Source: Chloroflexota bacterium
GTDB lineage: Bacteria > Chloroflexota > Dehalococcoidia > Tepidiformales > Tepidiformaceae
Length of the DNA: 64,000 bases
Assembly: GCA_016234445.1 (NCBI GenBank)
Contig: JACRBT010000004.1
Span: 248,001-312,000, forward strand
Reading direction: 5' to 3'
Below the pieces are notes generated by a model. It ran no database searches. It saw only the letters and a list, made by a program, of their open reading frames with translations, and was not told the origin of the DNA. This document shows, one piece after another, positions 4,565 through 48,649 of this stretch. The translations under genes were made by a program, and so were the position numbers. Positions within the stretch are counted from its first letter, which is position 1. Every line of letters begins with the position of its first letter.

Positions 4565-5980
4565 GTGCCCGATCCCACAGACCTCACCCTTGCCCAGGCC
4601 GCCGCCGCCATCCGTTCCCGGCAGCTTTCGCCGCTCGAACTCACCGAGGCCTACCTCGCCCGGATCGAACGCCTGGAACCCCGGCTCAACGCCTACATCA
4701 CGGTCACGGCGGAGCGCGCCCGCGACGACGCCCGCCGCGCCGAAACCGAAGTCGCCGGCGGCGAATACCGGGGGCCGCTCCACGGCATCCCCTTCGGGCT
4801 GAAGGACCTCTTCGAGACCGCGGGGATCCGCACGACCGCGGGCTCGAAGATCCTTGCGGACCACGTCCCCGCAGCCGACGGCACCGTGGTCCGCCGGCTG
4901 CGGGAAGCGGGCGCCGTCCTCCTCGGGAAGCAAAACCTGCACGAGTTCGCCTACGGGGCCACCTCCGAGAACCAACACTACGGCCCGGTCCACAATCCCT
5001 GGGCGCTCGCCCACATCCCCGGCGGGTCCAGTGGCGGGTCGGCCGCCGCGATCGTCGCTCGCACGGCCCTCGCGACTTTGGGCACCGACACCGCCGGCAG
5101 CATCCGCATCCCGGCGGCGCTTTCGGGATGCGTTGGGCTGAAGCCGACACGGGGCCGGGTGAGCAAGCAGGGCGTCATCCCCCTGTCCTGGACACTCGAC
5201 CACGCCGGCCCAATTACGCGGACGGTCGAGGACGCCGCCATCGTCCTGGAGGCCGTCGCCGGCTACGACCCCGCGGACTCCAGCGCCGTCCGCACGCCCG
5301 TGCCTGCTTATCGGGACGGCATCGATGGCGGCGTGAAGGGGCTCCGGGTCGGCGTGCCGCGCGCCTTCTTCTTCGACCCACTCCACGACGAGGTGAGGGC
5401 AGCAGTCGAGGCCGCGATCGAGGTCTTCCGCGGCCTCGGAGCCGACGTCCGGGACGTCGAGGGCCTCGACTTCGAACCGTTCGTGGAAGCGCGCGTCCTC
5501 GTCCAGCGGGCCGAAGCCCAGCACTACCATGAGCGCTGGTTCCGGGAACGGCCGGGGGACTACGGCGCCTCGGTGGCTGAGCGGCTCGCGGCCCCCACCC
5601 CGGCGACACTGGAACTGGTCGCGTCCCAGCGCGCCCTCGCCGCCTACACCGAGGCCGTCCGTGCGGCCCTTGAGGACGTGGACCTGCTCCTCACGCCAAC
5701 CATGGCCGGCCCGGCCCCGAAGATCGGCACGGGCGTGCTCGATTGCGGGCGAGAGTCGATCCCTGTTGGAGTAGGGTTAGTGCGGCTCACGCAGCCGTTC
5801 AACGCCACCGGATCGCCCGCGCTCTCGCTGCCTTGCGGCTTCACGCGCGACGGCCTGCCGATCGGTCTCCAGCTCGCCGGCCGCGACTTCGACGAAGCCA
5901 CGGTCCTCCGCGCCGGCCACGCCTACGAGCAGGCGACCGAGTGGCATCGGCGGCGACCGCCGGCGTTAGAGTTCCGGTAG
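4565..5980 (+). CDS. Amidase-signature family hydrolase (GatA paralogue)
   Basis: 471 residues. Amidase signature enzymes cleave amide bonds with a Ser-cisSer-Lys triad, visible as the Lys of 'PFGLKDLFETAGIRTTAGS', the cis-Ser in 'GTDTAGSIRIPA' and the nucleophile region 'PGGSSGGSAAA'. GTG start chosen because GGGGGAG precedes it by a few bases and because upstream in-frame sequence runs through the promoter and looks non-coding. The gene converges on gatA and their 3' ends overlap by 15 bases. Similar in length to GatA, but it lies outside the gatA-gatC operon, so a separate amide hydrolase is more likely than a second transamidase subunit. The natural substrate cannot be told. Confidence 0.85.
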   Translation: MPDPTDLTLAQAAAAIRSRQLSPLELTEAYLARIERLEPRLNAYITVTAERARDDARRAETEVAGGEYRGPLHGIPFGLKDLFETAGIRTTAGSKILADHVPAADGTVVRRLREAGAVLLGKQNLHEFAYGATSENQHYGPVHNPWALAHIPGGSSGGSAAAIVARTALATLGTDTAGSIRIPAALSGCVGLKPTRGRVSKQGVIPLSWTLDHAGPITRTVEDAAIVLEAVAGYDPADSSAVRTPVPAYRDGIDGGVKGLRVGVPRAFFFDPLHDEVRAAVEAAIEVFRGLGADVRDVEGLDFEPFVEARVLVQRAEAQHYHERWFRERPGDYGASVAERLAAPTPATLELVASQRALAAYTEAVRAALEDVDLLLTPTMAGPAPKIGTGVLDCGRESIPVGVGLVRLTQPFNATGSPALSLPCGFTRDGLPIGLQLAGRDFDEATVLRAGHAYEQATEWHRRRPPALEFR

Positions 5981-7426
5981 GCGGTTCGCCCAGCCGAGGG
6001 CACGTTCGAAGGCGTGGGCGGCCATCACGATCCGGGGCTCGTCGAAGAAGTTCCCGATGATCTGAAGGCCCACGGGCAGCCCCTCGCTCAGGCCGCAGGG
6101 GACGCTGATCGACGGCAGGCCCGCGACCGACGCCGGCAGCGTGTAGATGTCGTTCAAGTACATCGCATAGGGGTCGTCGACCTTCGCGCCGATGGGGAAG
6201 GCGACCGTCGGCGAGGTCGGCGTCACGAGCACGTCGTAGCGGCCGAAAGCCTCCTGGAACTCCTGGTTGATGACGGTGCGGACCTTCTGGGCCTTGAGGT
6301 AATAGGCGTCGTAGTACCCGGCGCTGAGGGCGTACGTCCCGAGCATGATCCGGCGCTTCACCTCGGCGCCGAAGCCACCCGCGCGGGTGTGTTCCATGTT
6401 CTCCCACATCGTGCCGTGGGAACGGTCGCTGTAGCCGTACTTGACGCCGTCGTAGCGGGCCAGGTTCGCGCTCGCCTCGCTCGGGGCGATCAAGTAGTAG
6501 ACCGCAAGCGCGTGTTCCGTGCTCGGCAGCGAGAGGTCCCGGTCGACGATGCAGCCGAGGCCTTCGAAAACGGCCAGCGCTTCCTCGATCCGCGCCTTCA
6601 CGCCCTCTTCCATCCCGGCGATGAAGTACTCCTTCGGGACGCCGATCCGAAGGCCCTTGATGTCGCGGCCGAGGTAGTGGCGAAGGTCCGGGAGCGGCTC
6701 GGGGTTGCTGGTGCTGTCGCGGGGGTCGTGCCCGGAGATGCAGTCCGCCATCGTCACGACATCCTCGACGTCGCGCCCGATCGGCCCCACCTGGTCGAGC
6801 GAACTCCCGAAGGCGATGATCCCGAAGCGCGAAACGCGGCCGTAGGTCGGATCCATCCCCACCACCCCGCAGAGCGCGGCCGGCTGGCGGATGCTCCCGC
6901 CGGTGTCGCTCCCAAGTGCGACGAGGCATTCGCCCGCCGCCACCGCGGCCGCCGACCCCCCCGAACTCCCGCCCGGGACAAGGGAGAGGTTCCATGGATT
7001 GTGCGAAGGCCCGAAGGCGGAATGCTCCGTGCTCGAACCCATGGCGAATTCGTCCATGTTCGCCTTGCCGACCATCACCGCCCCGGCGCGAAGGAGCTGT
7101 TCGTAGACGTGGCTGTCGTAGGGCGGGATGAAGTTCTCGAGGATGCGCGAACCTGCCGTGGTCCGCACCCCCGCGGTCACGATCAGGTCCTTTACCGCCA
7201 CGGGCACGCCGGTCAGGGGCGTGGCGGTCCCGGCTGCGAACCGGGCGTCGGCCTGGTGGGCTTGCTCCAGGGCAACCTCGGCGGTCGTCGTGATGTAGGC
7301 GTGGACGCGCGGCTCCACAGCCTCCATCCGCGCGAGCACGGACTCGGTGAGCTCCACTGCGGTGAACTGTTTCGAACGGAGGCCTTCGTGGGCTTCGTGC
7401 GCCGTCAGCCGCCAGAGGTCGCTCAT
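5966..7426 (-). CDS. gatA: Aspartyl/glutamyl-tRNA amidotransferase subunit A
   Basis: 486 residues. GatA releases ammonia from glutamine and passes it to GatB, which amidates Glu-tRNA(Gln) or Asp-tRNA(Asn). Triad elements are visible: Lys in 'VPVAVKDLIVTAGVRTTAGS', cis-Ser in 'GSDTGGSIRQPAA', nucleophile in 'PGGSSGGSAAAVAAG'. The N-terminus 'LTAHEAHEGLRSKQFTAVELTESVLARMEAVEPRVHAYI' is typical GatA. It overlaps gatC by four bases (ATGA), so the two are translationally coupled. gatB is not in the window. Confidence 0.93.
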   Translation of the reverse strand: MSDLWRLTAHEAHEGLRSKQFTAVELTESVLARMEAVEPRVHAYITTTAEVALEQAHQADARFAAGTATPLTGVPVAVKDLIVTAGVRTTAGSRILENFIPPYDSHVYEQLLRAGAVMVGKANMDEFAMGSSTEHSAFGPSHNPWNLSLVPGGSSGGSAAAVAAGECLVALGSDTGGSIRQPAALCGVVGMDPTYGRVSRFGIIAFGSSLDQVGPIGRDVEDVVTMADCISGHDPRDSTSNPEPLPDLRHYLGRDIKGLRIGVPKEYFIAGMEEGVKARIEEALAVFEGLGCIVDRDLSLPSTEHALAVYYLIAPSEASANLARYDGVKYGYSDRSHGTMWENMEHTRAGGFGAEVKRRIMLGTYALSAGYYDAYYLKAQKVRTVINQEFQEAFGRYDVLVTPTSPTVAFPIGAKVDDPYAMYLNDIYTLPASVAGLPSISVPCGLSEGLPVGLQIIGNFFDEPRIVMAAHAFERALGWANRLPEL

Positions 7427-7710
7427 TCGAGCACCGCCCGGACGCGGAAGAAGCCGTCCTCCTGCTCGGGCGCGTTCTTCAGGATCTCGGCTCGCGGCAG
7501 CGACGATGCAACTTCGTCGGCCCGCATGACGTTGAAGAGAGGGAGAGGATGTGCCGTGGGTTCAACAGACCGGGTGTCGACCGCCGAAAGCGCGGAGAAG
7601 TGGTCAAGGATGCCGGAGAGCTGGTCCGCCAGGCGTTCCACCTCGGCCTCCGTGAGCGCAATCCGGGCCAATTTCGCGATGTGGAGGACGTCTTCCGGGG
7701 TGAGAGCCAT
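7423..7710 (-). CDS. gatC: Aspartyl/glutamyl-tRNA amidotransferase subunit C
   Basis: 95 residues, standard GatC size: '[44 protein letters not shown]' at the N-terminus and '[37 protein letters not shown]' at the C-terminus, the belt that clamps GatA and GatB. First gene of gatC-gatA, divergent from the penicillin-binding protein gene. A TACGCT hexamer lies seven bases before its ATG on the minus strand, so it may be close to leaderless. Confidence 0.93.
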   Translation of the reverse strand: [95 protein letters not shown]

Positions 7711-7772
7711 GCAGACGAGCGTACAACGACTCTCCCTTTACCGCGCGCATGGCCCGCAGATCCGGGACTTGC

Positions 7773-7778
7773 TACGCT
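7773..7778 (+). promoter_or_regulatory. Possible -10 box for the penicillin-binding protein transcript
   Basis: TACGCT eight bases before the ATG of a 21-codon upstream ORF; a twin TACGCT faces gatC on the other strand. Confidence 0.35.
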
Positions 7779-7786
7779 CGGAAGCA

Positions 7787-7852
7787 ATGGATCACCCCAC
7801 ACCGAAGTGGTCCCCGGCCCTGAGGAATGACACCTGCGGGGGCCGCGCGTGA
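7787..7852 (+). CDS. 21-codon upstream ORF overlapping the PBP start
   Basis: ATG immediately downstream of a -10-like box; its TGA (7850-7852) overlaps the GTG of the penicillin-binding protein gene in GTGA fashion, so ribosomes ending here could restart on the main gene. The sequence is not recognisable; it may act only as a coupling device. Confidence 0.4.
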   Translation: MDHPTPKWSPALRNDTCGGRA

Positions 7853-10800
7853 ACAGTGTCTACAAGCGCCGCCTCCTTCGCGCCCGGTCGCAACGGCGGC
7901 GCGGCGGCATGCCCTGGTGGCTGACGGGCCTGCTTGCCCTCTTCGCGCTCGGTTCGATCTGCGCCGCGGCCGCCATCGGCGCCGTCTTCGCGGTCTACCA
8001 GTCCTACGCGAAGGACTACGTCCCAATCGAGGACAAGCTCCGCCAGACGAACATCGGGCTCACCGAGATCTATGACCGCGGCGGCCCAACCTCCGGCGTC
8101 CTCCTCGGCTCGCTGACCAACTCCGACGCCCAGCTGCTGGAGCCCGTGCCCCTCGACCAGATCTCCCGGTGGGTCATCCAGGCGACGATCTCCACGGAAG
8201 ACAACAGCTTCGAGTCGAACCCCGGGATCAACCTCCGGGGGCTCGCGCGCGCGGCCTGGGAAAACTACACCCAGGGCGGGATCGGCTCGGGCACGGGCGG
8301 CTCGTCGATCACCCAGCAGCTCATCAAGAACGTCTACATCTGCCCCAACATCGGCGACGAGCACACCCGCTGCGTCACCGCCGCCCGGACGATCGACCGC
8401 AAGCTCCGCGAAATCACCTACGCCCTCGAACTGGAGAAGGACTACACCAAGGACGAGATCCTGACCTGGTACCTGAACCAGATCTCCTACGCCGACCGCT
8501 ACGTGGGCATCCAGGCCGCTGCCCAGGGCTACTTCCGCAAAGACGCCGCCGACCTGACCCTCGGCGAAGCGGCCCTGCTCGCCGGAGTCCCCGCCTTCCC
8601 CACGGAATACCATCCCCGGCTCAACTGCGTGATCGACAAAGAGGACCCCGAAGGCAAGGCCTGCGTCGTCGACGGGCTTGGCCGGACGGTGGTGGGCGGC
8701 AAGGCCAAGCAGCGCCAGGAGGACGTCCTCGACCTGATGGTGCGCCACGGCCGCGCCACCCGAGAAGAAGCAGACGCCGCCAGGTCCGAGGACATCCGTG
8801 TCTACGGGACCACCAACCCGATCAAGTCCGCCGCCTTCATCGACAACCAGGTGGAGCCTCGGCTGGTGCGCATGTGCGAAGCGGGCTGGTTGCCCAAGAT
8901 CGAAGGCTCCACCGACTGCTCCGCCAGCGTCCACGCGGCCGGCTACCGGGTGACCACCACGCTCGACTGGAAGGCCACCGAGCGCGCGACCCAGCTCATC
9001 CAGGAGTGGATAGCGGACGGCGAGGCCAAGAAGTGCGAGTGCCACAACGCCGCCATCGTCACGATCGAGCCGAGCACGGGGCAGGTGACCGTCTACGCAC
9101 CGAACCGGAACCCGAAGGAAGTGCTCGACGAACGCATCGCCGGGGACGTGGACCAGCTCACCGAGATCAACCAGCCCGGGTCGTCGTTCAAGCCGGCCGT
9201 CTACCTCACCTGGTTCGACGTCCTTGGGAAGGCGCCACTCAACATCTTCTGGGACACGAGCCCGTTGACGATCGAAGGCGTCGCGATCACAAACCCGCGC
9301 TCCGACGTTGGCTACGAAGGCGCCGGCCTGATCTCCGCGCGGGCTGCCCTTGGCGGCTCGCAGAACGTCGGCGCCTTCCGGGCAGCGCAGGAAGCGGGCG
9401 TCGATAACGTCATCGAGATGGCGAAGAAGCTGGGCATCACCACCCTCCAGCAGTACTTCGACCCCACCTGGAGCTCGCACGCCGACGTGACCTACGGCGC
9501 TTCGATCGCCACCGGGGGCGCGAACATCCGGGCCATCGACATGGCCTACATGAACTCCGTCTTCGCCAACATGGGCGCGATGGTGGGGGTCGAGACGCTC
9601 GCGAAGACCATCGACCCGAAGGACCTGAAGAGCCTCTTCAACTCCGAGGGCGCCGAGTACGACCGCGCCTACAAGCAGTACCAGGACTTCAACCGCGGCC
9701 ACCTCCGCCTGCCCGGGACCCGGGAGCTGGACCCGATCGTCGTCCTCCAGGTGCAGGACATCGACGGCAACGTGCTCTTCACCCAGGGCGAACCCCAGCG
9801 CCGGCAGGTCGTGGACGCGGGCTCGGTGTGGCTGCTCAACTCGATCATCTCCGACTGCACGTCGCGTTTCATCATCTGGGGCTGCGGAGGTAGCAACGAC
9901 GACCTCCGCCTCGACTCCTTTGTCGATGGCGTCAAGATCCCGACGGGCGTCAAGACCGGCACCCAGCAAGGCTTCAAGAGCGCCGCAGCCACGCTCGAGA
10001 CTTGGACGAACGGGTACTCCCGCTATGCGGCCACCGCCCTCTGGGTGGGCAACGCCAACAACGATGAAGTGCGCGACGGCCCCGGCGCCGACTATGCCAC
10101 CGCCAACACGACGGTCCGCCTCTTCAAGAACTGGATGGGCGAATACCACGCCATGCTCAAAGCGCAGGGAGTCTTCACCACGCCGGAAGGCTTCGACTCG
10201 CTGAGGCCGAAGAACGTGGCGCTGACCGATGTCGAGACGCCGGCGACCGACCGCATATACACGAACAATGGCAAGGACCCCCCCAAGTTCTGTGAACAGA
10301 CCGCGCGGGGATGGGTGCGCACCGACGTCCCCTTCAAGAGCGACTGCGAAGCCAAGGACATCGACAGCCGCAACGGGCTCCTCGCCAGCGACCAGACCCC
10401 CGCCCAGTTCCGGGTCAGCAAGAAGTTCGTGAAGCTGCCGGGCTTCAAGGCGGACCTCGCCCAGGAGCTGGCGAAGAAGACCCACATCCCCATCGTCCCG
10501 ACCGAAAAGAGCACGGGGCAGGTGGCGCTCGCGATCACGAATCCGACGAACGGCAAGACGATCACGGCCAACTCGGACGTCGTCGGCAGCGTCCAGACGA
10601 GCAACGTGAAGGCATGGAAGCTGGAGATCGGCGCCGGGAGCAATCCGACGGAGTGGAAAACGATCGGCACCGGGACCACACGCGTCCAGAACGTCGTCCT
10701 CGGCACGATCGACCTGAAGGACCTCAAGGACGGCGTCTACACCATCCGGCTGACGGCCGAGGACGCGGTCGTGGTGGGCCTCTCCACGTCGGTGACGGTC

Positions 10801-39766: not shown

Positions 39767-41560
39767 CTATCTCCGGCCGAACTGGCGCTCGACGGCGTCC
39801 GTGCTGAGGTGCACCAGGGTTGGGCGCCCGTGGGGGCAGGTCCGCGGCGATGCTGTCGCTTCGAGGTCGGCCACCAGCTGGCGCATCTCTTCCAGCGAGA
39901 GGGCGGTGCCGGCGCGCACGCTGGAATGGCAGGCCACGGTCGCCGCCGCCCGGGCGAAGGGGTCGGTCACGCGCCGCTCGCCCGCCAGCTGATCGAGGAC
40001 GGCGCGGATGGCCCCGGTGACATCCGTGCCGCCGAGGCCTGGGGGGATCGCCCGGATGAGATAGCTGCGCTCGCCGAACGCCTCAATCGCGAGCCCGAGC
40101 GCCGCCAGCTGCTCGTGGTGCTCTTCGAGGGTCGCACAGGCGGCAAGGTCCAGTTCCAGCAGGGCCGGCTCGAGCAGCGGCTGGACGGCGCCCCCGTTGC
40201 CGTCGCCAGTCCGCGCGAGGAGGCGGTCGTAGACGACGCGTTCGTGGGCAGCGTGCTGGTCGATGAGATACATCCCGTCGGGGCCTTCCGCGACCACGTA
40301 GGTCGCGCCGACCTGGCCGACGACGCGAAGCATCGGGAGCAGCTCGCGCTGGGTCAGCGGCGCCACCGGGGCGCCCGACGCTGTCCGCCACGAGAGCGTG
40401 GCTTGCACCGGCTCCGGCGCGCGAAGGGCCGCCACGGGCGCGGAGGAGGCCTGGAGACGGTCGCGCAAGGGCGAGAGCGCCACAGTGCCGCCCCCAACGG
40501 TCGCGACTACCGCTGGCTGGAGGCTGACGCCCACCGGGGCTCCCCATGCGGCCGGCCGCGAAGCGTCGAGCGCGGCGAGGACGGCGTGGCGCACGACCCG
40601 GCCTACCAGCCGCTCGTCGCGGAAGCGCACCTCGGCCTTGGCGGGGTGGACGTTCACGTCGACGTCTGCCTCCGGGATCGTTATCGACAGCGCGGCGATG
40701 GGGTGACGCCCAATCGGGAGCTGCGACTGGTAGGCGTCGGCGACGGCGAAGGTCAGCGGCCGGCTCTGGACCCAGCGCCCGTTGATGAACACCGAGATGG
40801 CGGAACGGTTGCCGCGGTGCACCGACGGCGGCCCCGCAAGCCCGGTCACCCCGATCTCAGCCTCGTTGTAAGCGGTGTCGAGCATGGCCGCGCCCGTCTC
40901 GGCCCCATAGACGGCGGCAAAGGCGTGGCGGATGTTGCCGTCGCCCGGGGTGGCCAGCAGCCGGCGTCCGCCCATCGAGAGATGGAAGGCGATGCCGGGG
41001 TAGGCGAGGGCGTAGTGCGAGACGAGCACCGTCACCTGTCGCCCCTCGGCGGCCGGGGACGCGAGGAACTTCCGCCGGGCCGGCAGCCGGGCAAAGAGAT
41101 CGCGCACGGCGATGCTCGTGCCCACCGGGGCAGGCCGGGCCGATCGCCTCGCCGGGCGGGCCTCGATGAAGACGGCGTGGACGCCGACCGGCTCCCCCCG
41201 GGCGCGCGAAAGCACCTCCACGTCCCCGGCGGCGGCGATCGAAGGCAGCGCTTCGCCCCGGAAGCCGAGCGTGTGGAGGTGGGCAAGGTCGTCGAGCATC
41301 GTGATCTTGCTCGTCGCGTGGCGTTCGAAGGCGACCTCCAGCTGCTCCGGCGGGATGCCGTGGCCGTTGTCGGCGACGCGAATGAGCCCGAGGCCGCCGT
41401 CCTCGATCTCGACCGAGACCTGGGTGCTGCCGGCGTCGATCGCGTTGTCCAGGAGCTCGCGGACGACCGAGACCGGGCGCTCGACGACTTCGCCCGCGGC
41501 GATGCTGGCGGCCACCTCCGGCGGGAGGACGCGGATTGCGGCGGGGGTCGCGCCGGTCAC
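39767..41560 (-). CDS. mutL: DNA mismatch repair protein MutL
   Basis: 597 residues. N-terminal GHKL ATPase: 'ELLDNAIDAGSTQ' (Mg Glu/Asn), 'VADNGHGIP', 'ATSKI', 'TLGFRGEAL', 'GTSIAVRDLFARLPARRKFL'. C-terminal endonuclease motifs: 'LIDQHAAHERVVYD' (DQHAxxExxxx with a final Asp instead of Glu), 'ACHSS', 'CPHGRPTL' and terminal 'QFGRR', so it is probably an active nickase, as in bacteria lacking MutH. GTG start overlaps the mutS stop (GTGA). Confidence 0.95.
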   Translation of the reverse strand: MTGATPAAIRVLPPEVAASIAAGEVVERPVSVVRELLDNAIDAGSTQVSVEIEDGGLGLIRVADNGHGIPPEQLEVAFERHATSKITMLDDLAHLHTLGFRGEALPSIAAAGDVEVLSRARGEPVGVHAVFIEARPARRSARPAPVGTSIAVRDLFARLPARRKFLASPAAEGRQVTVLVSHYALAYPGIAFHLSMGGRRLLATPGDGNIRHAFAAVYGAETGAAMLDTAYNEAEIGVTGLAGPPSVHRGNRSAISVFINGRWVQSRPLTFAVADAYQSQLPIGRHPIAALSITIPEADVDVNVHPAKAEVRFRDERLVGRVVRHAVLAALDASRPAAWGAPVGVSLQPAVVATVGGGTVALSPLRDRLQASSAPVAALRAPEPVQATLSWRTASGAPVAPLTQRELLPMLRVVGQVGATYVVAEGPDGMYLIDQHAAHERVVYDRLLARTGDGNGGAVQPLLEPALLELDLAACATLEEHHEQLAALGLAIEAFGERSYLIRAIPPGLGGTDVTGAIRAVLDQLAGERRVTDPFARAAATVACHSSVRAGTALSLEEMRQLVADLEATASPRTCPHGRPTLVHLSTDAVERQFGRR

Positions 41561-44094
41561 GGCTGGTTGCCCCGCCGGGCAAGCGCGCGGAGCTCATAGA
41601 GCCGCTGAATCGCCTCCAGCGGCGTCATCCCCTCGACGTCGAGCGCGCCTACCTCTCGCTCCACCGCGGACGGCCCCCCGAAGAGCGACGGCTGGAGCCG
41701 TGGCGCCGTGTCGGCCGGGACCGGACGGACACCGTCGCGGCTGGCTTCGAGCTCGTCGAGAAGGTGCTGGGCGCGGCTCACGACGGCTGACGGCAGCCCG
41801 GCGAGGCGGGCGACATGGATGCCGTAGGAACGGTCGCTGGGACCCGGGACGATGCGGTGTTCGAAGACGACGTCGCTGCCCTCCTCCCGGACGGAGACAT
41901 GGGCGTTGCGGACCCGCGGGAGGACGCCTTCGAGCGACGTGAGTTCGTGGTAGTGGGTGGCGAAGAGCGTGCGGGCGGCGATCTCGCGGCGATTGTGGAG
42001 GAATTCGACCACGGCCCGGGCAATGGCCATGCCGTCGAAGGTGCTGGTGCCCCGGCCGACTTCGTCGAGGATGACGAGCGACTGCGGCGTTGCCCGGTGC
42101 AGGATCTGGGCAGTCTCCACCATCTCCACCATGAAGGTGGACTGCCCGGCGGCGAGGTCGTCCTGCGCGCCCACGCGGGTGAAGATGCGGTCGAAGAGCG
42201 GGAGGTCGGCTTCGGCCGCAGGGACGAAGGAGCCGGCCTGGGCCATCAGGGCGATGAGCGCCACCTGCCGGAGGTAGGTCGACTTCCCGCTCATGTTCGG
42301 CCCCGTGAGGATGACAACCTGGCAGCCGTCGTCGAGGAGGCAGTCGTTGGGGACGAAGCGGCCGGCGCCGAGCGCGGCTTCCACGACCGGGTGGCGCGCC
42401 CCCACCAGGCTCAGCCGCGAGCCGTCGTTGAACGCCGGGCGGACGTAGTTGCGAAGCGCTGCCGCCTCCCCCAGCCCGAGGGCGAGGTCGATGAAGGCGA
42501 GGGCCTCGGCCACCGCCTGGAGCCCGGCGAGCCCCGCGGCGAGGGTCTCCACCAGCTGTGCGAAGGCCTGCTTCTCCAGTTCGACCAGGCGGTCGCGGGC
42601 GCCGACGAGGCGCGATTCGTACTCCTTCAGCTCCTCGGTGACGTAGCGTTCCGCGCCGACGAGCGTCTGGCGGCGCTGATAGTGGGCCGGGACAAGGCCC
42701 GCGTTCGAGGCGGAGATCTCGATGTAGTAGCCGAAGACCCGATTGTGGCCGACCTTCAGCGTTTTGATCCCGCTCCGCTCGCGTTCGAGGCGTTCGAGGC
42801 CGAGGAGGAAGCCGCGGGCGTCGCGAGTCATCGCCCGGAGGGTGTCGATCTCCCCGAGGAAGCCGGGCTTGATGACGCCGCCTTCGTCGAAGCTCGATGG
42901 CGGATCGTCGTCGAGGGCCGCATCGAGGGCGAGGAGCGGTTCGGCCGCGCCCGCGAGCCGTTGGCGGGCGTCCGCGAGCATCGCCGGGAGATCCTGGCGG
43001 GCGAGGATCGCCCCGAGGTCGAGGGTGGCGCGCAGGGCCGTCCGCAGCCCATGGAGGTCGCGCGGCGCGGCCGCCCGGGAACCGACCCTCCCCGCAAGCC
43101 GGCCGGCGTCCGGCATGGAGCGAAGCACCGCCTGGCACTGTTCGCGCTCAATCGGGTGACTCACCGCCCAGCCGACGGCGTCGAGCCGGGCTTCGAGCGC
43201 TGGCGCCTCCCGGAGGGGGTGGGTCAGCCAGGTCCGGAGGAGCCGCGCCCCCATGGGCGTCTTCGCCAGGTTCAGCACCGAGAAGAGCGAGGCCCGGCCG
43301 TCGCTGCCGAGCACGTCGAGGTTGCGGAGGGTGCGGGGGTCGACCGTCAGGACCTGGCCGCCCGCCACCTGGCGGACGCGCTGGAGCGAACCGAGGGCGG
43401 CGGGGTAAGTCTCGCGGAGGTAGATGAGGATGTGGGCGAGCGCCGCCGCTTCCGCTTCCCCCGGGACAAGGCCGGCGCGGGCATGCTCGCCGAACTGGCG
43501 CGTGACCTCGTTCGCGGCCTGGAAGTCGCTCACCTGCGGCCGTCGGCAGAGGGCGACGGTCACTCCCGCCGGGGCTTCGCCGTCTTCGACCAGCAGCTCC
43601 GCCGGGGCGCTGCGAAGGAGCTCGTCGAGCGCCTCGTCGCCCGTCGCGAGGCGGACCTCCCCGGTCGTGATGTCGGCGAGGGCGAGGGCGGTGCCGTCGC
43701 GGCGGGAGACCATCGCCGCGAGGTAATTCGGCGCGTGGGCGTCGAGGGAGCTTTCCGCGGTGACCGTACCGGCGGTGACGACGCGGACGATGTCGCGGGG
43801 GACGAGGCCCTTCACCTCCGCCGGATCGGCCATCTGTTCGCAGATCGCGACGCGGTAGCCGCGGCCGACGAGCTTCGCCACGTGGCCGTCGATGCTGTGG
43901 TAGGGCACCCCGGCCAGGGGAACGCGGATGTCCTTGCCCATCGGCTTCGAGGTGAGGGTTATCTGGAGCTCGGAAGCGACCAGCTTCGCATCGTCGTCGA
44001 AGGTTTCGTAGAAGTCGCCGAGGCGGAAGAAGAGGATGGTTTCCGGGAAGCGCTGCTTGAGTTCGAGGTACTGGCGGCGGATGGGCGTGGGCAC
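41557..44094 (-). CDS. mutS: DNA mismatch recognition protein MutS
   Basis: 845 residues, full length. Mismatch-binding 'ILFFRLGDFYETF' (Phe-x-Glu), clamp and lever domains, ATPase with Walker A 'ILTGPNMSGKSTYLRQVAL', Walker B 'LVILDEVGRGTSTFDGMAIA', 'FATHYHEL'. GTG start with ACGGAG upstream; a minus-strand TAGAAT -10 box (in 44120-44140) lies about 30 bases before it. First gene of mutS-mutL, which together start methyl-independent mismatch repair. Confidence 0.96.
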   Translation of the reverse strand: MPTPIRRQYLELKQRFPETILFFRLGDFYETFDDDAKLVASELQITLTSKPMGKDIRVPLAGVPYHSIDGHVAKLVGRGYRVAICEQMADPAEVKGLVPRDIVRVVTAGTVTAESSLDAHAPNYLAAMVSRRDGTALALADITTGEVRLATGDEALDELLRSAPAELLVEDGEAPAGVTVALCRRPQVSDFQAANEVTRQFGEHARAGLVPGEAEAAALAHILIYLRETYPAALGSLQRVRQVAGGQVLTVDPRTLRNLDVLGSDGRASLFSVLNLAKTPMGARLLRTWLTHPLREAPALEARLDAVGWAVSHPIEREQCQAVLRSMPDAGRLAGRVGSRAAAPRDLHGLRTALRATLDLGAILARQDLPAMLADARQRLAGAAEPLLALDAALDDDPPSSFDEGGVIKPGFLGEIDTLRAMTRDARGFLLGLERLERERSGIKTLKVGHNRVFGYYIEISASNAGLVPAHYQRRQTLVGAERYVTEELKEYESRLVGARDRLVELEKQAFAQLVETLAAGLAGLQAVAEALAFIDLALGLGEAAALRNYVRPAFNDGSRLSLVGARHPVVEAALGAGRFVPNDCLLDDGCQVVILTGPNMSGKSTYLRQVALIALMAQAGSFVPAAEADLPLFDRIFTRVGAQDDLAAGQSTFMVEMVETAQILHRATPQSLVILDEVGRGTSTFDGMAIARAVVEFLHNRREIAARTLFATHYHELTSLEGVLPRVRNAHVSVREEGSDVVFEHRIVPGPSDRSYGIHVARLAGLPSAVVSRAQHLLDELEASRDGVRPVPADTAPRLQPSLFGGPSAVEREVGALDVEGMTPLEAIQRLYELRALARRGNQP

Positions 44095-44159: not shown

Positions 44160-44858
44160 TCAGGCCGGCGGGCCGGTGGCGGGGCCGGGGCCGAACGGGT
44201 TGCCGCGGGTGATCCGCTCCCGGATCTCGGCGACGAGCACCCGCAGCGACGCGACGTCCGACGCCAGCATGTCGGTCGACAGGACTGCGAGCAGCGCTTC
44301 GCTGTCGATGTCCGAGTGGCTGAGGAGCTGGCGGATGTCGGCTTCGTAGATCGCGGCCTTGTCTGTCTGGCCGCGGCGATACAGCGACGGCAGGGCGAAC
44401 AGCTTCAGGAACACCAGCCCCTCCGGGGTCGCACAGGCGATGTCGGCCCGGCCGGCGATCTTGCCCTTCGCGACGTACCTTCGCCGGAACTCGCGAAAGA
44501 TCGTGTTCTCGGTCAGGAGGATGTCGACGCGGACGCCCTCAAAGTCCGCGTTCGCGAAGTCCCGGTCCCGGGTGAGAACCTGGAGCTCCGGCAGGCGGCG
44601 GAGGTCGGACAGCGCCATCACAAGGTCGACATCCCGGGTGTTCCGCCCCTCGACGTACTGGAGCATGGCGAGGCCACCGACGAGCACGTAGTCCACCTTG
44701 CGCTCAGCGAGGAGGTCGAAGAGGCGCGTCGCGGCGCGGTAGAGCGAGTCGTAGGCGGCGGGGTCTTCGCCAAGCCATCGAAGGGTCCCGAACCGGGCCG
44801 CCTCGAGGACCGCGGGGACGTCCACCTCGCGCGGGGCCGCCGAGGCGTCTTCGTTCAC
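44160..44858 (-). CDS. Nucleotidyltransferase-fold protein (AbiEii-like), function unknown
   Basis: 232 residues. 'DYVLVGGLAMLQYVEGRNTRDVDLVMAL' is the polymerase-beta nucleotidyltransferase core (GG...D-x-D) with a third acidic residue in 'FEGVRVDILLTE'. The rest is helical. Resembles AbiEii/MenT-type or 'nucleotidyl transferase' housekeeping proteins; no AbiEi-like antitoxin is adjacent, so a toxin role is not supported. GTG start predicted to be leaderless. Confidence 0.7.
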   Translation of the reverse strand: MNEDASAAPREVDVPAVLEAARFGTLRWLGEDPAAYDSLYRAATRLFDLLAERKVDYVLVGGLAMLQYVEGRNTRDVDLVMALSDLRRLPELQVLTRDRDFANADFEGVRVDILLTENTIFREFRRRYVAKGKIAGRADIACATPEGLVFLKLFALPSLYRRGQTDKAAIYEADIRQLLSHSDIDSEALLAVLSTDMLASDVASLRVLVAEIRERITRGNPFGPGPATGPPA

Positions 44859-44897: not shown

Positions 44898-46796
44898 TCA
44901 GGCTCCCGCGGCAGCCCCCGCGGCGATCGGCGCGGCCAGCCGATCCCGCACCTCGATCGCATTGGGCGCGACCTCCCGGCAGGCGCCGCAGCGGACGCAG
45001 AGCGCGTCGTCGACCCGCCACTGGCCGCCTTCCTCGACGAACGCGGCCGTCGGGCAAATCGCCCGGGCCTCGGCGAGGGCAGCGTCGGTCTGGGAGCGGA
45101 CGCGGTATTCGATAAGCCCGGGACAGACGCCGGCGCGGCAGCGCTTCTCGACGATGTGCTCGGTCCATTCGCCGGCGAAGGCCTTCAGCGCGGTCTTAAT
45201 CGTCGTCATCGCGAACTGCCCGTGGAAGCAGTTCGACCAGACGAGCGTCTTGACGAGTTCCTGGAAGTTTTCGAGGTCGGCCTCGCGGCCACCGCCAAGG
45301 GAGATCCGCCGGAGGATCTCCACGGCGCGCTGGGTGCCCCCGTGGCAGGTCGTGCAGCGCCCGCACGACTCCGCCTCGCAGAACCCGAGGAAGTAGGTGC
45401 AGAGGTCGACGATGCAGGCGCTCTCGTCGAAGAAGACGATGCCGCCGCCGCCGAGGAAGAGCCCGCGCTCGCGGTAGGGGTCGAGCGTGAGTGTCAGGTC
45501 GAGTTCGTCGCCGTTGACGACGCCAGAGAGGGGGCCGCCGGGCTGGAATCCCTTGCAGCGCTTGCCGTCCTTCATCCCACCGGCGTACTGCTCGAGCGCT
45601 TCCCGGACCGTTGGGCCGTAGACGATCTCGACGCAGCCCTGCCAGTTCACGCTGCCGGAGAAGGTGAACATCTTGGTGCCCTTCTCCTTGGCGGTGCTGA
45701 CGGTGCTCCACCATTCGGCGCCGTTGCGCAGGATCAGGGGCGCGTTCGCGTACGACTCGACGTTGTTGACGTTGGTTGGCTTGTTCCAGAGGCCCGCCTG
45801 GGCCGGGAACGGCGGCTTGATCCGCGGCATCCCGCGGTAGCCGTCGATCGAGTTGATCAGGCCGGTCTCTTCGCCGCAGACGTACGAGCCCGCGCCCCGG
45901 AAGACGACGAGGTCGAAGTCGAGGCCGCTGCCGAGGATGTTCGTCCCAAGGAGGCCCTTCGCGTAGGCCTGGTCCACCGCGGTCTGCATCCTGGCGAAGG
46001 CGAGCGGGTATTCGTAGCGGATGTAGATGTAGCCTTCGCGGGCGCGGGCGGCCAGCGCCGCGATCAGCATCCCTTCGACGATCAGCTGGGGGTCGCCCTC
46101 CATGAGGACGCGGTTCACCCAGGCGCCGGGGTCGCCTTCGTCGGCGTTGCAGACAAGGTAGCGCGGCTCGGCCGTGGCGCTGCGAAGGAAGTCCCACTTT
46201 CGCCCGGCCGGGAAGCCGCCCCCGGCGCGACCGCCGAGACCGCTGTCGACGACTTCCTTGACGATCGCCTCGGCGTCCATCTCCAGCGCCTTGCCGAAGC
46301 CCTCATAGCCGCCGAGGGCGATGTAGTGGTCGATGTTCTCAGGGTCGATGACGCCGATGTTCGCCATCAGCCGGCGGACCTGGCCCTTCATGAACGGGTG
46401 GTCGCTGAGGAGCGGCACTTCCGGGGTGGAGGTGCCTTCAACGACCCCAAGGGCGAGTTCGGGCATGTCGCCGCCGGCGGCGAGGACGCGGTCGACGAAT
46501 TCGTCCACCCGCTCGGCCGTCAGGTTCGCGTAGAGGACGGTGCGGGTGCCGGCGGCGGAGCGGACGGTCAGGGTCGGCTCCATCCAGGAGAAGCCCCAGG
46601 AACCTCCGGTGCCGACGTCAACGTTAAGGCCGCGGGCCGCCACCGCCGCGCGGAGGGCGTCGAGCGTCGCCTGGCCGCCGCGGGCGAGCGACGAAGTGTC
46701 GATGCAGATGCGGACGTGCTGGCGGCCGTCGGACTGGTAGGCGGCCCAATCGCGCTTCGCCGAGTCGATGATCGCCTGGAGCTTCGCGTTCGTCAT
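44898..46796 (-). CDS. NuoF/HydB-type NADH dehydrogenase subunit with C-terminal ferredoxin domain
   Basis: 632 residues. N-terminal thioredoxin-like [2Fe-2S] domain (~25-95) that has lost its Cys ligands except C31; NADH/FMN domain ('GLGGRAGGGFPAGRKW', 'CNADEGDPGAWVNR'); SLBB domain; N3-type cluster 'ESCGRCTTC' with a later Cys ('SNCFHG'); 'CRAGVCPGL'; and a C-terminal CxxCxxC 4Fe-4S site ('CVRCGAC', fourth Cys in 'AICPTAA'). Layout is that of HydB/HndC/NfnB-type electron-bifurcating or formate/hydrogenase beta subunits. No alpha subunit is nearby. ATG overlaps the nuoE stop (ATGA). Confidence 0.85.
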   Translation of the reverse strand: MTNAKLQAIIDSAKRDWAAYQSDGRQHVRICIDTSSLARGGQATLDALRAAVAARGLNVDVGTGGSWGFSWMEPTLTVRSAAGTRTVLYANLTAERVDEFVDRVLAAGGDMPELALGVVEGTSTPEVPLLSDHPFMKGQVRRLMANIGVIDPENIDHYIALGGYEGFGKALEMDAEAIVKEVVDSGLGGRAGGGFPAGRKWDFLRSATAEPRYLVCNADEGDPGAWVNRVLMEGDPQLIVEGMLIAALAARAREGYIYIRYEYPLAFARMQTAVDQAYAKGLLGTNILGSGLDFDLVVFRGAGSYVCGEETGLINSIDGYRGMPRIKPPFPAQAGLWNKPTNVNNVESYANAPLILRNGAEWWSTVSTAKEKGTKMFTFSGSVNWQGCVEIVYGPTVREALEQYAGGMKDGKRCKGFQPGGPLSGVVNGDELDLTLTLDPYRERGLFLGGGGIVFFDESACIVDLCTYFLGFCEAESCGRCTTCHGGTQRAVEILRRISLGGGREADLENFQELVKTLVWSNCFHGQFAMTTIKTALKAFAGEWTEHIVEKRCRAGVCPGLIEYRVRSQTDAALAEARAICPTAAFVEEGGQWRVDDALCVRCGACREVAPNAIEVRDRLAAPIAAGAAAGA

Positions 46797-47263
46797 TCGC
46801 CCTTCACCTCGCGGGCCAGGCGGATGGCGGCGGAAACGCTCAGGTTCCCGACGACCTCGCCGTTCACCCAGACCTGGGGGGCTTCGCTGCAGGTGCCGTT
46901 GCACTGGCCCACGTGGAGGCCGTAGCGGTGGTCTTCGCTTTCGCCGCCGAGGGGGAGTTCGAGCGTCTGCTGGATGGCCTCGCGGATGCGGTCACCGCCG
47001 CGCAGGCGGCAGGCGGGGCCGCTGCACCAGGCGATCTCGGTCTCAGGGCGAGGGTGGGTTCGGAAGTCGTCGTAGAACGAGACGGTGCCGTAGACGAGCG
47101 CCGGGGTCGTGTTCAGCTGGCGGGCGACGACCTCGATCGCTGCTCGCGAGATGTACCCGTAGCGATCCTGCACGCGATGGAGCGCGGGCATGACGTGACC
47201 GCGTCCCGGCTGGAAATCGGCGACAAGACCGCGCAGTTCTTCGAGTGTTGGCTCAGGCTGCAT
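46793..47263 (-). CDS. NuoE/HydC-type [2Fe-2S] subunit
   Basis: 156 residues. Thioredoxin-like ferredoxin fold with ligands in 'WCSGPACRLRGG' (Cys, Cys) and 'GQCNGTCSEAP' (Cys, Cys); N-terminal helices 'VMPALHRVQDRYGYISRAAIEVVARQLNTTPALVYGTVSFYDDF' are the NuoE signature. Passes electrons between NuoF and the partner subunit. GGGGAG six bases before ATG; TATAGT promoter 30 bases further up. First gene of nuoE-nuoF. Confidence 0.9.
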   Translation of the reverse strand: MQPEPTLEELRGLVADFQPGRGHVMPALHRVQDRYGYISRAAIEVVARQLNTTPALVYGTVSFYDDFRTHPRPETEIAWCSGPACRLRGGDRIREAIQQTLELPLGGESEDHRYGLHVGQCNGTCSEAPQVWVNGEVVGNLSVSAAIRLAREVKGE

Positions 47264-47314: not shown

Positions 47315-48649
47315 CTATATGCGCGCCCCGGCCGCGGCGGAGACCGCCCGCCAGTCTTCGTCCATCAGCCCCGCCACCTTTTCGCCCAGCAGCAGGCTGT
47401 AGTTCTGGCCACGATCCTCGGGGTAGACCTGGGTGGTGTTCGCCAGGTAGAGCCCGCTCACGCCGGTGCGCATCTCCGGGATCTGCTGGGAGTAGTTCGT
47501 CGTGATCACCGGCTGGCCGCCCGGGTCCTTGAAGAGCCACTTCTGCCGCACCCACGACGGGTCGAAGGCCGGGTTGATGGCCCGGATGCCCTCAAGGTAG
47601 CTCGCGAGAACCGCGTCGGCGTCCATCTCCAGCACGGGGTGGCCGGGCGGCACGTAGTTCGAAAAGTAGACCACGTGGTTGCCGCCGTAGCGCTCGGCGG
47701 GGATGAAGTTCGTGTGCTCAACGCAGGCGACGAACGGCAGCGGGTCGCCGATGTTGAGCCAGTAGTAGGGGCTGAGCTGGCGGTCGAGGGAGAGGATGAG
47801 GCAGGTCGCCCACTGGTAGCGCACGCGCTTGAGGACGTCGCTGTAGCCCTCCGGCAGCGACGGCGCGATCTTCATGGTGATGCTGTTCGGGGTGGTCATC
47901 AGGACCTGGTCGAACTCCCGGAGTTCGCCGTTCACCCGGATGCCGCGGACGGCGCCTTCCTCGACCACGACCTCCTCGACGGGGCAGGACAGGTTGATCT
48001 GGCCGCCGTTGTCCCGGACCCGCTGGGCGAGCCGGTCGATGTAGGCTTCGAAGGACCCCTGGAGGTATCCGAGCTGCTCGCGGGAGCCGGTGGCCCCCTT
48101 CCGGGAGGCGAAGCGCAGGTAGACCTTCCCCCACAGCCAGGTCATGCCCACGTGGTCGGCCTGGTCGGCGAACTTGCCCCGGAGGAGCGGGCCCCAGACG
48201 GCTGCGAACGCCTTCTTGCCGACGGCGCGTTCCATCCATGCTCGGGCGGTGACGTTCTCGTACTTTCGCCAGTCCTTCTGGCGGCGCAGCCAGACCGCGG
48301 CCAGCCCGAGGCGCACCCGGCCCAGGAGCGGCGCGGGCTTGTAGCGGAGGAGGTCCACGGGCGTGACGAAGGGGTACATCTTGCCGCCGCGGAGGAAGGC
48401 GACCTTCGACTCGATCCACTGGAGCCGGTCCCCGAGGCCGAGTTCTTCGATGTAGCGGACGACGGCGGTGTCGTTCGTGAAGATGTGGTGGTAGAAGCAC
48501 TCCAGCTTTTCGCCGCCCACCTCGAACGTCACCACCTGGCCGCCGACACCGTCCCGGGCCTCGAAGATCGTGACCTGGTGGCCCCGCTCCTGGAGCACCT
48601 TCGCCGCGGCAAGCCCGCCAACGCCCGCGCCGACAATACCGACGTTCAT
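47315..48649 (-). CDS. FAD-dependent amine oxidase/protoporphyrinogen-oxidase-like protein
   Basis: 444 residues. N-terminal FAD Rossmann 'VGIVGAGVGGLAAAKVLQERGHQVTIFEARDGVGGQ', FAD motif end 'TGVSGLYLANTTQVYPEDRGQNYSLLLG'. The central 'ECFYHHIFTND' region is found in UDP-galactopyranose-mutase-like and amine-oxidase-like proteins of sugar-lipid loci. It lies in the glycosylation-type operon: its ATG overlaps the stop of the flippase-like gene. Acting on a lipid or sugar-lipid is likely, but chemistry is unproven. Confidence 0.75.
   Translation of the reverse strand: MNVGIVGAGVGGLAAAKVLQERGHQVTIFEARDGVGGQVVTFEVGGEKLECFYHHIFTNDTAVVRYIEELGLGDRLQWIESKVAFLRGGKMYPFVTPVDLLRYKPAPLLGRVRLGLAAVWLRRQKDWRKYENVTARAWMERAVGKKAFAAVWGPLLRGKFADQADHVGMTWLWGKVYLRFASRKGATGSREQLGYLQGSFEAYIDRLAQRVRDNGGQINLSCPVEEVVVEEGAVRGIRVNGELREFDQVLMTTPNSITMKIAPSLPEGYSDVLKRVRYQWATCLILSLDRQLSPYYWLNIGDPLPFVACVEHTNFIPAERYGGNHVVYFSNYVPPGHPVLEMDADAVLASYLEGIRAINPAFDPSWVRQKWLFKDPGGQPVITTNYSQQIPEMRTGVSGLYLANTTQVYPEDRGQNYSLLLGEKVAGLMDEDWRAVSAAAGARI

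Follow-up and report, generated by a model that had tools for sequence, protein, structure and literature searches.

The NuoE–NuoF pair encoded in the window, that is, in the whole 64,000-nucleotide stretch of DNA that was analysed, is likely to be the NADH module of a complex I encoded at scattered places in the genome, and to descend from an electron-bifurcating module that has shed its ferredoxin-side clusters. This reading rests on gene content, on co-occurrence and synteny, and on the cluster ligands that NuoF has kept or lost. The pair is probably not a stand-alone enzyme, and the point most in doubt is whether it serves one or the other of two complex I sets.

An earlier note on this DNA, drawn from the sequence alone, had described a NuoE–NuoF pair, and both open reading frames are indeed in place and match the corresponding Pfam families (table 1), with a 4-nt overlap between the start of NuoF and the stop of NuoE. 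The gene list comes from a codon-usage gene caller, applied to a GC-rich genome with long antisense frames; since a homologue of NuoF is present in 36 of the 38 genomes of the order Tepidiformales, the pair is not a chance occurrence. NuoE, whose best match is a formate dehydrogenase gamma subunit, has all four Cys of its [2Fe-2S] site (WCSGPAC, GQCNGTC), and NuoF is the sole PF01512 match of the whole genome in a profile search. The HydB/HndC-like layout ascribed to NuoF is borne out as well: its best sequence matches among solved structures are HydB/NfnB-type subunits of bifurcating enzymes, aligned over nearly the full length, and its AlphaFold model (mean pLDDT 85.9, with a confidently folded N-terminal thioredoxin-like part) has 9bp5_B as its closest structural match (Z 49.8, rmsd 3.5 over 575 aligned residues), followed by 9bov_B (Z 48.4). 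Every element of the BfuB layout is present, namely the thioredoxin-like, FMN/NADH, [4Fe-4S] and ferredoxin domains. The canonical NuoF/Nqo1 of 14-subunit complex I (Z 42.7–45.7 among the 50 matches listed) has in common with the window protein the FMN/NADH-binding fold and the N3 cluster, but is without the thioredoxin-like domain at the N-terminus and the ferredoxin domain at the C-terminus; against the NuoF equivalog TIGR01959 the window protein scores 433.3 bits, below the cut-off of 558.65. A search of PHROGs returned no match.

Table 1. Features of the NuoE–NuoF locus, with positions in the window
Feature	Position	Strand	Basis
MutS, conserved neighbour on the other side of the pair	41557..44094	-	synteny
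NuoF-like subunit, 632 aa, HydB/BfuB layout	44898..46796	-	PF01512, PF10589, structure matches
NuoF C-terminal ferredoxin domain, C581, C600, C603 and C606 kept, other set lost	44979..45056	-	ligand table
NuoF [4Fe-4S] site N3/B1 (C478, C481, C484, C523), intact	45228..45365	-	invariant columns
NuoF N-terminal thioredoxin-like domain, [2Fe-2S] ligands lost	46479..46724 (approximate limits)	-	ligand table, model
NuoE-like subunit, 156 aa	46793..47263	-	PF01257 E 1.5e-33
Flavin amine-oxidase-like protein, conserved neighbour	47318..48649	-	PF01593, synteny

As the earlier note had also stated, no alpha subunit is close by: the gene list of the window, judged from the starts of the proteins, holds no hydrogenase, formate dehydrogenase or NuoG gene. 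The surroundings of the pair are conserved. Among 29 other loci of the clade in the class, some of them cut by contig ends, mutS was seen next to NuoEF 20 times, the flavin oxidase gene 14 times and NuoG never. Gene mutS thus marks an old location of the pair, and the flavin amine-oxidase-like neighbour is conserved in position, its membership of the complex being unsupported. Between NuoF and mutS, the window also holds a gene (44163–44858, minus strand) with a sub-threshold match to DUF6036 (nucleotidyltransferase), a relative of which was seen in 3 of 18 named Tepidiformales loci.

The partner of NuoEF would have to be sought elsewhere in the genome, and the full-genome search that the earlier note had proposed, on the view that electrons must pass to an unlinked partner, lends weight to that view, as NuoG and NuoABCDHIJKLMN are all encoded in NuoF's own genome. 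An 824-residue NuoG on contig C6 carries PF13510, PF10588 and PF04879, plus weak matches to PF00384 and PF01568, and has a NuoI gene 2.1 kb upstream; contig C8 holds a lone NuoB, and contig C20 an operon NuoA-C-D-H-J-K-L-M-N without B, I, E, F or G, hereafter set 2. NuoEF, NuoG/NuoI, NuoB and the set 2 operon are four loci on different contigs, which counts against a single complex. A further set on contig C1, set 1, is a contiguous 11-subunit NuoABCDHIJKLMN, also without EFG. With NuoG, NuoI, NuoB and a headless operon in the same genome, the idea of a stand-alone orphan enzyme was set aside.

The missing alpha subunit might instead be a hydrogenase or a molybdopterin enzyme, of the formate dehydrogenase kind or another, to which NuoEF would dock; we regard this as very improbable. 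The 3.5 Mb genome (G000) does encode 12 PF00384 molybdopterin oxidoreductases, NuoG among them (contigs C1, C2, C5, C6, C7, C11, C14 and C20), and the sister NuoEF of the clade, at the locus L257, has as its neighbour the alpha subunit of a selenocysteine-type formate dehydrogenase. However, PF10588, the domain that NuoEF-docking alpha subunits are known to carry, occurs in a single gene of the genome, the C6 NuoG, whose catalytic Cys-His is missing, and the FeFe hydrogenase domain PF02906 was found nowhere in the genome, so that neither another molybdopterin enzyme nor an FeFe hydrogenase is supported as a partner. The formate dehydrogenase Cys-His is in fact absent from 20 of 20 clade NuoG sequences and present in both FdhA-like controls. 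Kinship with formate dehydrogenases is evident all the same and counts against the dispersed complex I: among solved structures, clade NuoG is closest to formate dehydrogenase alpha subunits (E 2e-62 for the C6 protein, the best complex I subunit reaching 3.1e-32). The best NCBIfam match of the C6 protein is nevertheless NuoG, TIGR01973, at 212.5 bits, below the cut-off of 470.05. NAD-linked formate dehydrogenases of the FdsABG type resemble the window system in that NuoE matches their gamma and NuoG their alpha subunits best and that the sister NuoF stands beside such an enzyme, but they differ in their active site, the catalytic Cys or Sec being absent from all 20 clade NuoG sequences.

Several features of the complex I loci were observed in passing. 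In all 20 of its sequences (L086:5300-7771 on the minus strand, L257, L273-L282), clade NuoG has a second, tandem N5-like His/Cys motif, which adds about 25 residues and may bind an additional iron–sulphur cluster; the motif also occurs in the L257 formate dehydrogenase alpha subunit and is absent from two other FdhA-like controls, and a PDB sequence search with this stretch gave two significant matches, both to the second copy only. A 65-residue protein with no Pfam match, encoded between NuoK and NuoL of set 2 (L084:12935-13129, plus strand) and conserved across 15 further loci of the class, is a candidate accessory subunit of complex I. The lone NuoB of Tepidiformales is flanked by two small proteins (L176:7781-7981 and 8735-8980, plus strand), the upstream one Cys-rich, with no Pfam match and present in 5 of 5 NuoB loci, the downstream one with a sub-threshold DUF2795 match and present in 4 of 5. 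Finally, NuoI of set 1 (L085:11593-12957, plus strand) has 455 residues and extends far past its ferredoxin-like part.

The distribution of the genes ties NuoF to NuoG well beyond this genome. Within Tepidiformales, NuoG is found in 34 of the 38 genomes. Among the matches listed for 216 other Dehalococcoidia genomes, 61 have both NuoF and NuoG (G050 being counted here, though its NuoF stands with a formate dehydrogenase), 2 have NuoF only, 8 NuoG only and 145 neither; these counts include related genomes and are not phylogenetically independent, so that their p-value is given no weight, and where clade identities overlap, at 43–44%, assignment went by family and, where fetched, by neighbours. 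Four of the eight genomes with NuoG only (G128, G154, G228, G236) have a weaker NuoF match, with E from 7e-104 to 1e-133. A set 2 NuoD match of at least 64% was seen in 28 of 28 chosen clade-positive genomes, but also in 2 of 21 chosen negatives (the others comprising 15 at 54–61% and 4 without a match), so that set 2 NuoD is not diagnostic by itself.

What NuoF has kept and lost was read from a ligand table of 30 Tepidiformales rows, 28 further clade members of the class (the sister L257 included), five intact HydB-type sequences from the same class (Dehalococcoidia) as controls and one outgroup, L074; L230, L234 and L250, in which no open frame passed the motif filter, are absent from it, and L232 was excluded from alignment A1. 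The N3-type [4Fe-4S] site is intact in 58/58 clade rows and 5/5 controls. Of the Tepidiformales rows, 0/30 retain the three N-terminal Cys seen in the controls, against 11/28 of the other clade rows; the window protein has, as previously claimed, a single Cys in this domain, residue 31, a position occupied by Gly in 5/5 controls and by Cys in the outgroup and 14/30 Tepidiformales rows. Four of the eight ferredoxin-domain Cys are gone from the window protein as well: motif 1 lacks its first three and motif 2 its “CP” Cys, so that the “CP” Cys of motif 1 and the CxxCxxC of motif 2 are left, whereas the five controls and the outgroup have all eight. The same four are absent in all 49 tailed clade rows (22 Tepidiformales, 27 others), and the other four are present in 48 of these, L258 lacking one, and invariant in 23 aligned sequences. 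In classical two-cluster ferredoxins, those four Cys together ligate one cluster. The four retained Cys thus make up one complete ligand set, meaning that one C-terminal [4Fe-4S] cluster has been cleanly removed. The whole ferredoxin tail is absent in 8/30 Tepidiformales rows, six from the genus holding Tepidiforma flava (g16) and two from g3.

On this basis, the C-terminal 4Fe-4S domain that had been announced is there with one full ligand set, but is itself reduced and has lost the other; likewise, the N-terminal domain has lost its ligands, but to call it “decayed” is misleading, the loss being common to all 30 Tepidiformales rows. With the N-terminal loss in every Tepidiformales row and the C-terminal loss in every tailed clade row, the ligand losses are old and tolerated, and a recent decay of NuoF was rejected.

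The positions that matter for bifurcation were taken from PMC9304861 and located by counting in the structure-match alignment. At the B2 [2Fe-2S] site, the window protein keeps C438, H525, C531 and C536 and has Ser at 476, where Cys or Thr is expected; as a block, these four ligands are all absent in 11/30 Tepidiformales rows and all kept in 19/30. Of the paper's signature residues, A202 and M204 could be placed by this count and F182 could not. A202 is kept, and Met204, which is associated with bifurcation, is present in 5/5 controls and 0/58 clade rows, with Val in the window protein and Gln in the outgroup. As the [2Fe-2S] cluster listed for StnB is B2 only (PMC10482914), the N-terminal ligand loss alone would be compatible with bifurcation. 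It is the combined loss of the N-terminal [2Fe-2S] cluster, one C-terminal [4Fe-4S] set and the bifurcation-associated residue that leads us to expect plain NADH dehydrogenase behaviour. The HydB, StnB and NfnB proteins remain the closest relatives of the window NuoF in sequence and structure, nearly over its full length, but differ from it by one ferredoxin-domain ligand set and M204, and from 11/30 Tepidiformales rows by C438, H525, C531 and C536 as well.

The same losses bear on the other option raised in the earlier note, in which NuoEF would be a soluble NADH–ferredoxin (or diaphorase-type) oxidoreductase without any alpha subunit. The family does have ferredoxin-linked members (PMC9304861, PMC10482914), and the invariance of the retained C-terminal set would suit such an activity; yet half of the ferredoxin-domain Cys are gone throughout the tailed clade rows, some Tepidiformales have dispensed with the tail altogether, and clade NuoF strongly co-occurs with NuoG across the class, all of which makes us give this option hardly any credence.

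If NuoEF is the head of a complex I, gene order points to set 2 as its body. Over the stretches covered, two of which (L264, L266) stop at a contig edge, the set 2 operon is without B and I in all ten further loci, and in 10 of 10 further loci NuoI adjoins NuoG, with a NuoB-NuoI-NuoG cluster in 3 of 10. In the genus of Tepidiforma flava, NuoEF lies 12–14 kb from a NuoD in 6 of 6 genomes, confirmed as that of set 2 in G021 and G022, and in the genome G003/FeB_14 it lies just downstream of NuoN and ybeY; the former proximity comes from one genus and the latter junction from one MAG, which weighs against the dispersed-complex reading. That NuoEF and the unlinked NuoG would serve set 1 instead, or both complexes in turn, is in our view distinctly unlikely. 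Set 1 is admittedly without EFG too, and in G050 a nuo operon closer to set 1 comes after the NuoEF unit; but the class-wide NuoG partner adjoins the NuoI, and in three loci the NuoB, that set 2 needs and of which set 1 has its own, and the 90% complete assembly of G003 yielded a single NuoD (87%) and a single NuoB (88.5%), each belonging to set 2, and no set 1 NuoD or NuoB. NuoG was not found in this 90% complete assembly either, a point against the dispersed complex I.

In a NuoF tree rooted on HydB-type sequences, the sister of the clade is the G050 protein of locus L257 (support 0.997 with L257, 0.925 without it). There (5600-10690, minus strand), NuoE and NuoF are followed by an alpha subunit with a TGA codon at the catalytic position of formate dehydrogenase, probably a selenocysteine formate dehydrogenase by its sequence, then by a putative GltD-like flavoprotein, so called from a reading of its sequence, and by a nuo operon in which A, B, C, D, H, I, J, K and L were seen and which resembles set 1 better (A 57%, B 62%, D 55%, K 69%). 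Given this TGA, the locus was rejected as a NuoE-F-G operon joined to complex I; the unit possibly encodes a formate-fed complex I. G050 additionally carries a NuoB-NuoI-NuoG cluster of the set 2 kind. A close relative of the window NuoEF therefore appears to work with a formate dehydrogenase beside complex I, which suggests that the NuoEFG module derived from a formate-dehydrogenase-like one; it also weakens any argument from ancestry, as the sister NuoEF stands with a formate dehydrogenase and not in a NuoEFG unit.

Taken as the NADH module of a dispersed complex I, the pair would work as follows. NADH would reduce the FMN in NuoF, and electrons would pass from its N3-type [4Fe-4S] cluster to the unlinked NuoG, then through NuoI (C6) and NuoB (C8) to the quinone site, with NuoACDHJKLMN from C20 as the proton-pumping arm. 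NuoF would descend from a HydB/BfuB-type subunit of an electron-bifurcating module and would behave as a plain NADH dehydrogenase module, without bifurcation. We infer the assembly of the parts into one complex, the electron path, quinone reduction and the loss of ferredoxin reactivity. A more elaborate scenario, which we consider rather unlikely as a whole, is that a formate-dehydrogenase-like bifurcating module was tamed into an NADH-only head of complex I: the alpha subunit would have lost its formate site and become NuoG, and NuoF would have lost first the ferredoxin-side cluster, then the N-terminal cluster, certain lineages also losing the B2 ligands or the entire tail. The single C-terminal cluster retained by most members may, in this scenario, still be a second, non-bifurcating electron port into complex I, for instance from ferredoxin.

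The dispersed NADH module has parallels among known systems. In Nuo-Bfu (Schut et al. 2022, PMC9304861), described from Deferribacteres, Proteobacteria, Planctomycetes and Nitrospirae, complex I has a bifurcating HydB-type module, BfuABC, so that a BfuB-type NuoF with N-terminal thioredoxin-like and C-terminal ferredoxin domains serves as NADH module, as proposed here; but Nuo-Bfu is a 14-gene operon with conserved bifurcating clusters, when the window module is unlinked and has partly lost them. According to the same paper, non-bifurcating homologues are devoid of clusters B2–B5. The C-terminal ferredoxin-like domain of StnB is the putative site of ferredoxin reduction (PMC10482914), and, for HydABC, the cluster Cys of this domain are stated to be conserved in all biochemically characterised bifurcating FeFe hydrogenases (PMC9499530). 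An unlinked NuoF has precedents: the second complex I of Chloroflexus aurantiacus is loosely arranged, with nuoF far from the rest as here (Tang et al. 2011, PMC3150298), and in Nitrospira a separate nuoF was proposed to serve a complex I without E, F and H (PMC6606698). In the Chloroflexus set no nuoG was identified, whereas here B, I, G and EF were located and their co-occurrence was counted. In the literature searched, part of it accessible as excerpts, we found no report of a class-wide dispersed set with a located NuoG and a partial loss of bifurcation clusters, and the Tepidiforma paper PMC10284905, in a text search, proved not to speak of complex I, nuo or NADH.

In many bacteria the complex I operon is without nuoEFG, and the source of its electrons is a matter of debate (PMC11238625). 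In the genome studied here, the NADH module of one such operon probably lies at another site, kept stably beside mutS in many families of the class; if so, naming a complex I “headless” or ferredoxin-type from its operon alone may be a mistake in these bacteria. With cluster ligands lost to different degrees, the clade also supplies natural variants in which to examine the clusters required for bifurcation, and, as Tepidiforma has been isolated in culture (PMC10284905), the reading of NuoEF as the NADH module of a dispersed complex I is testable.
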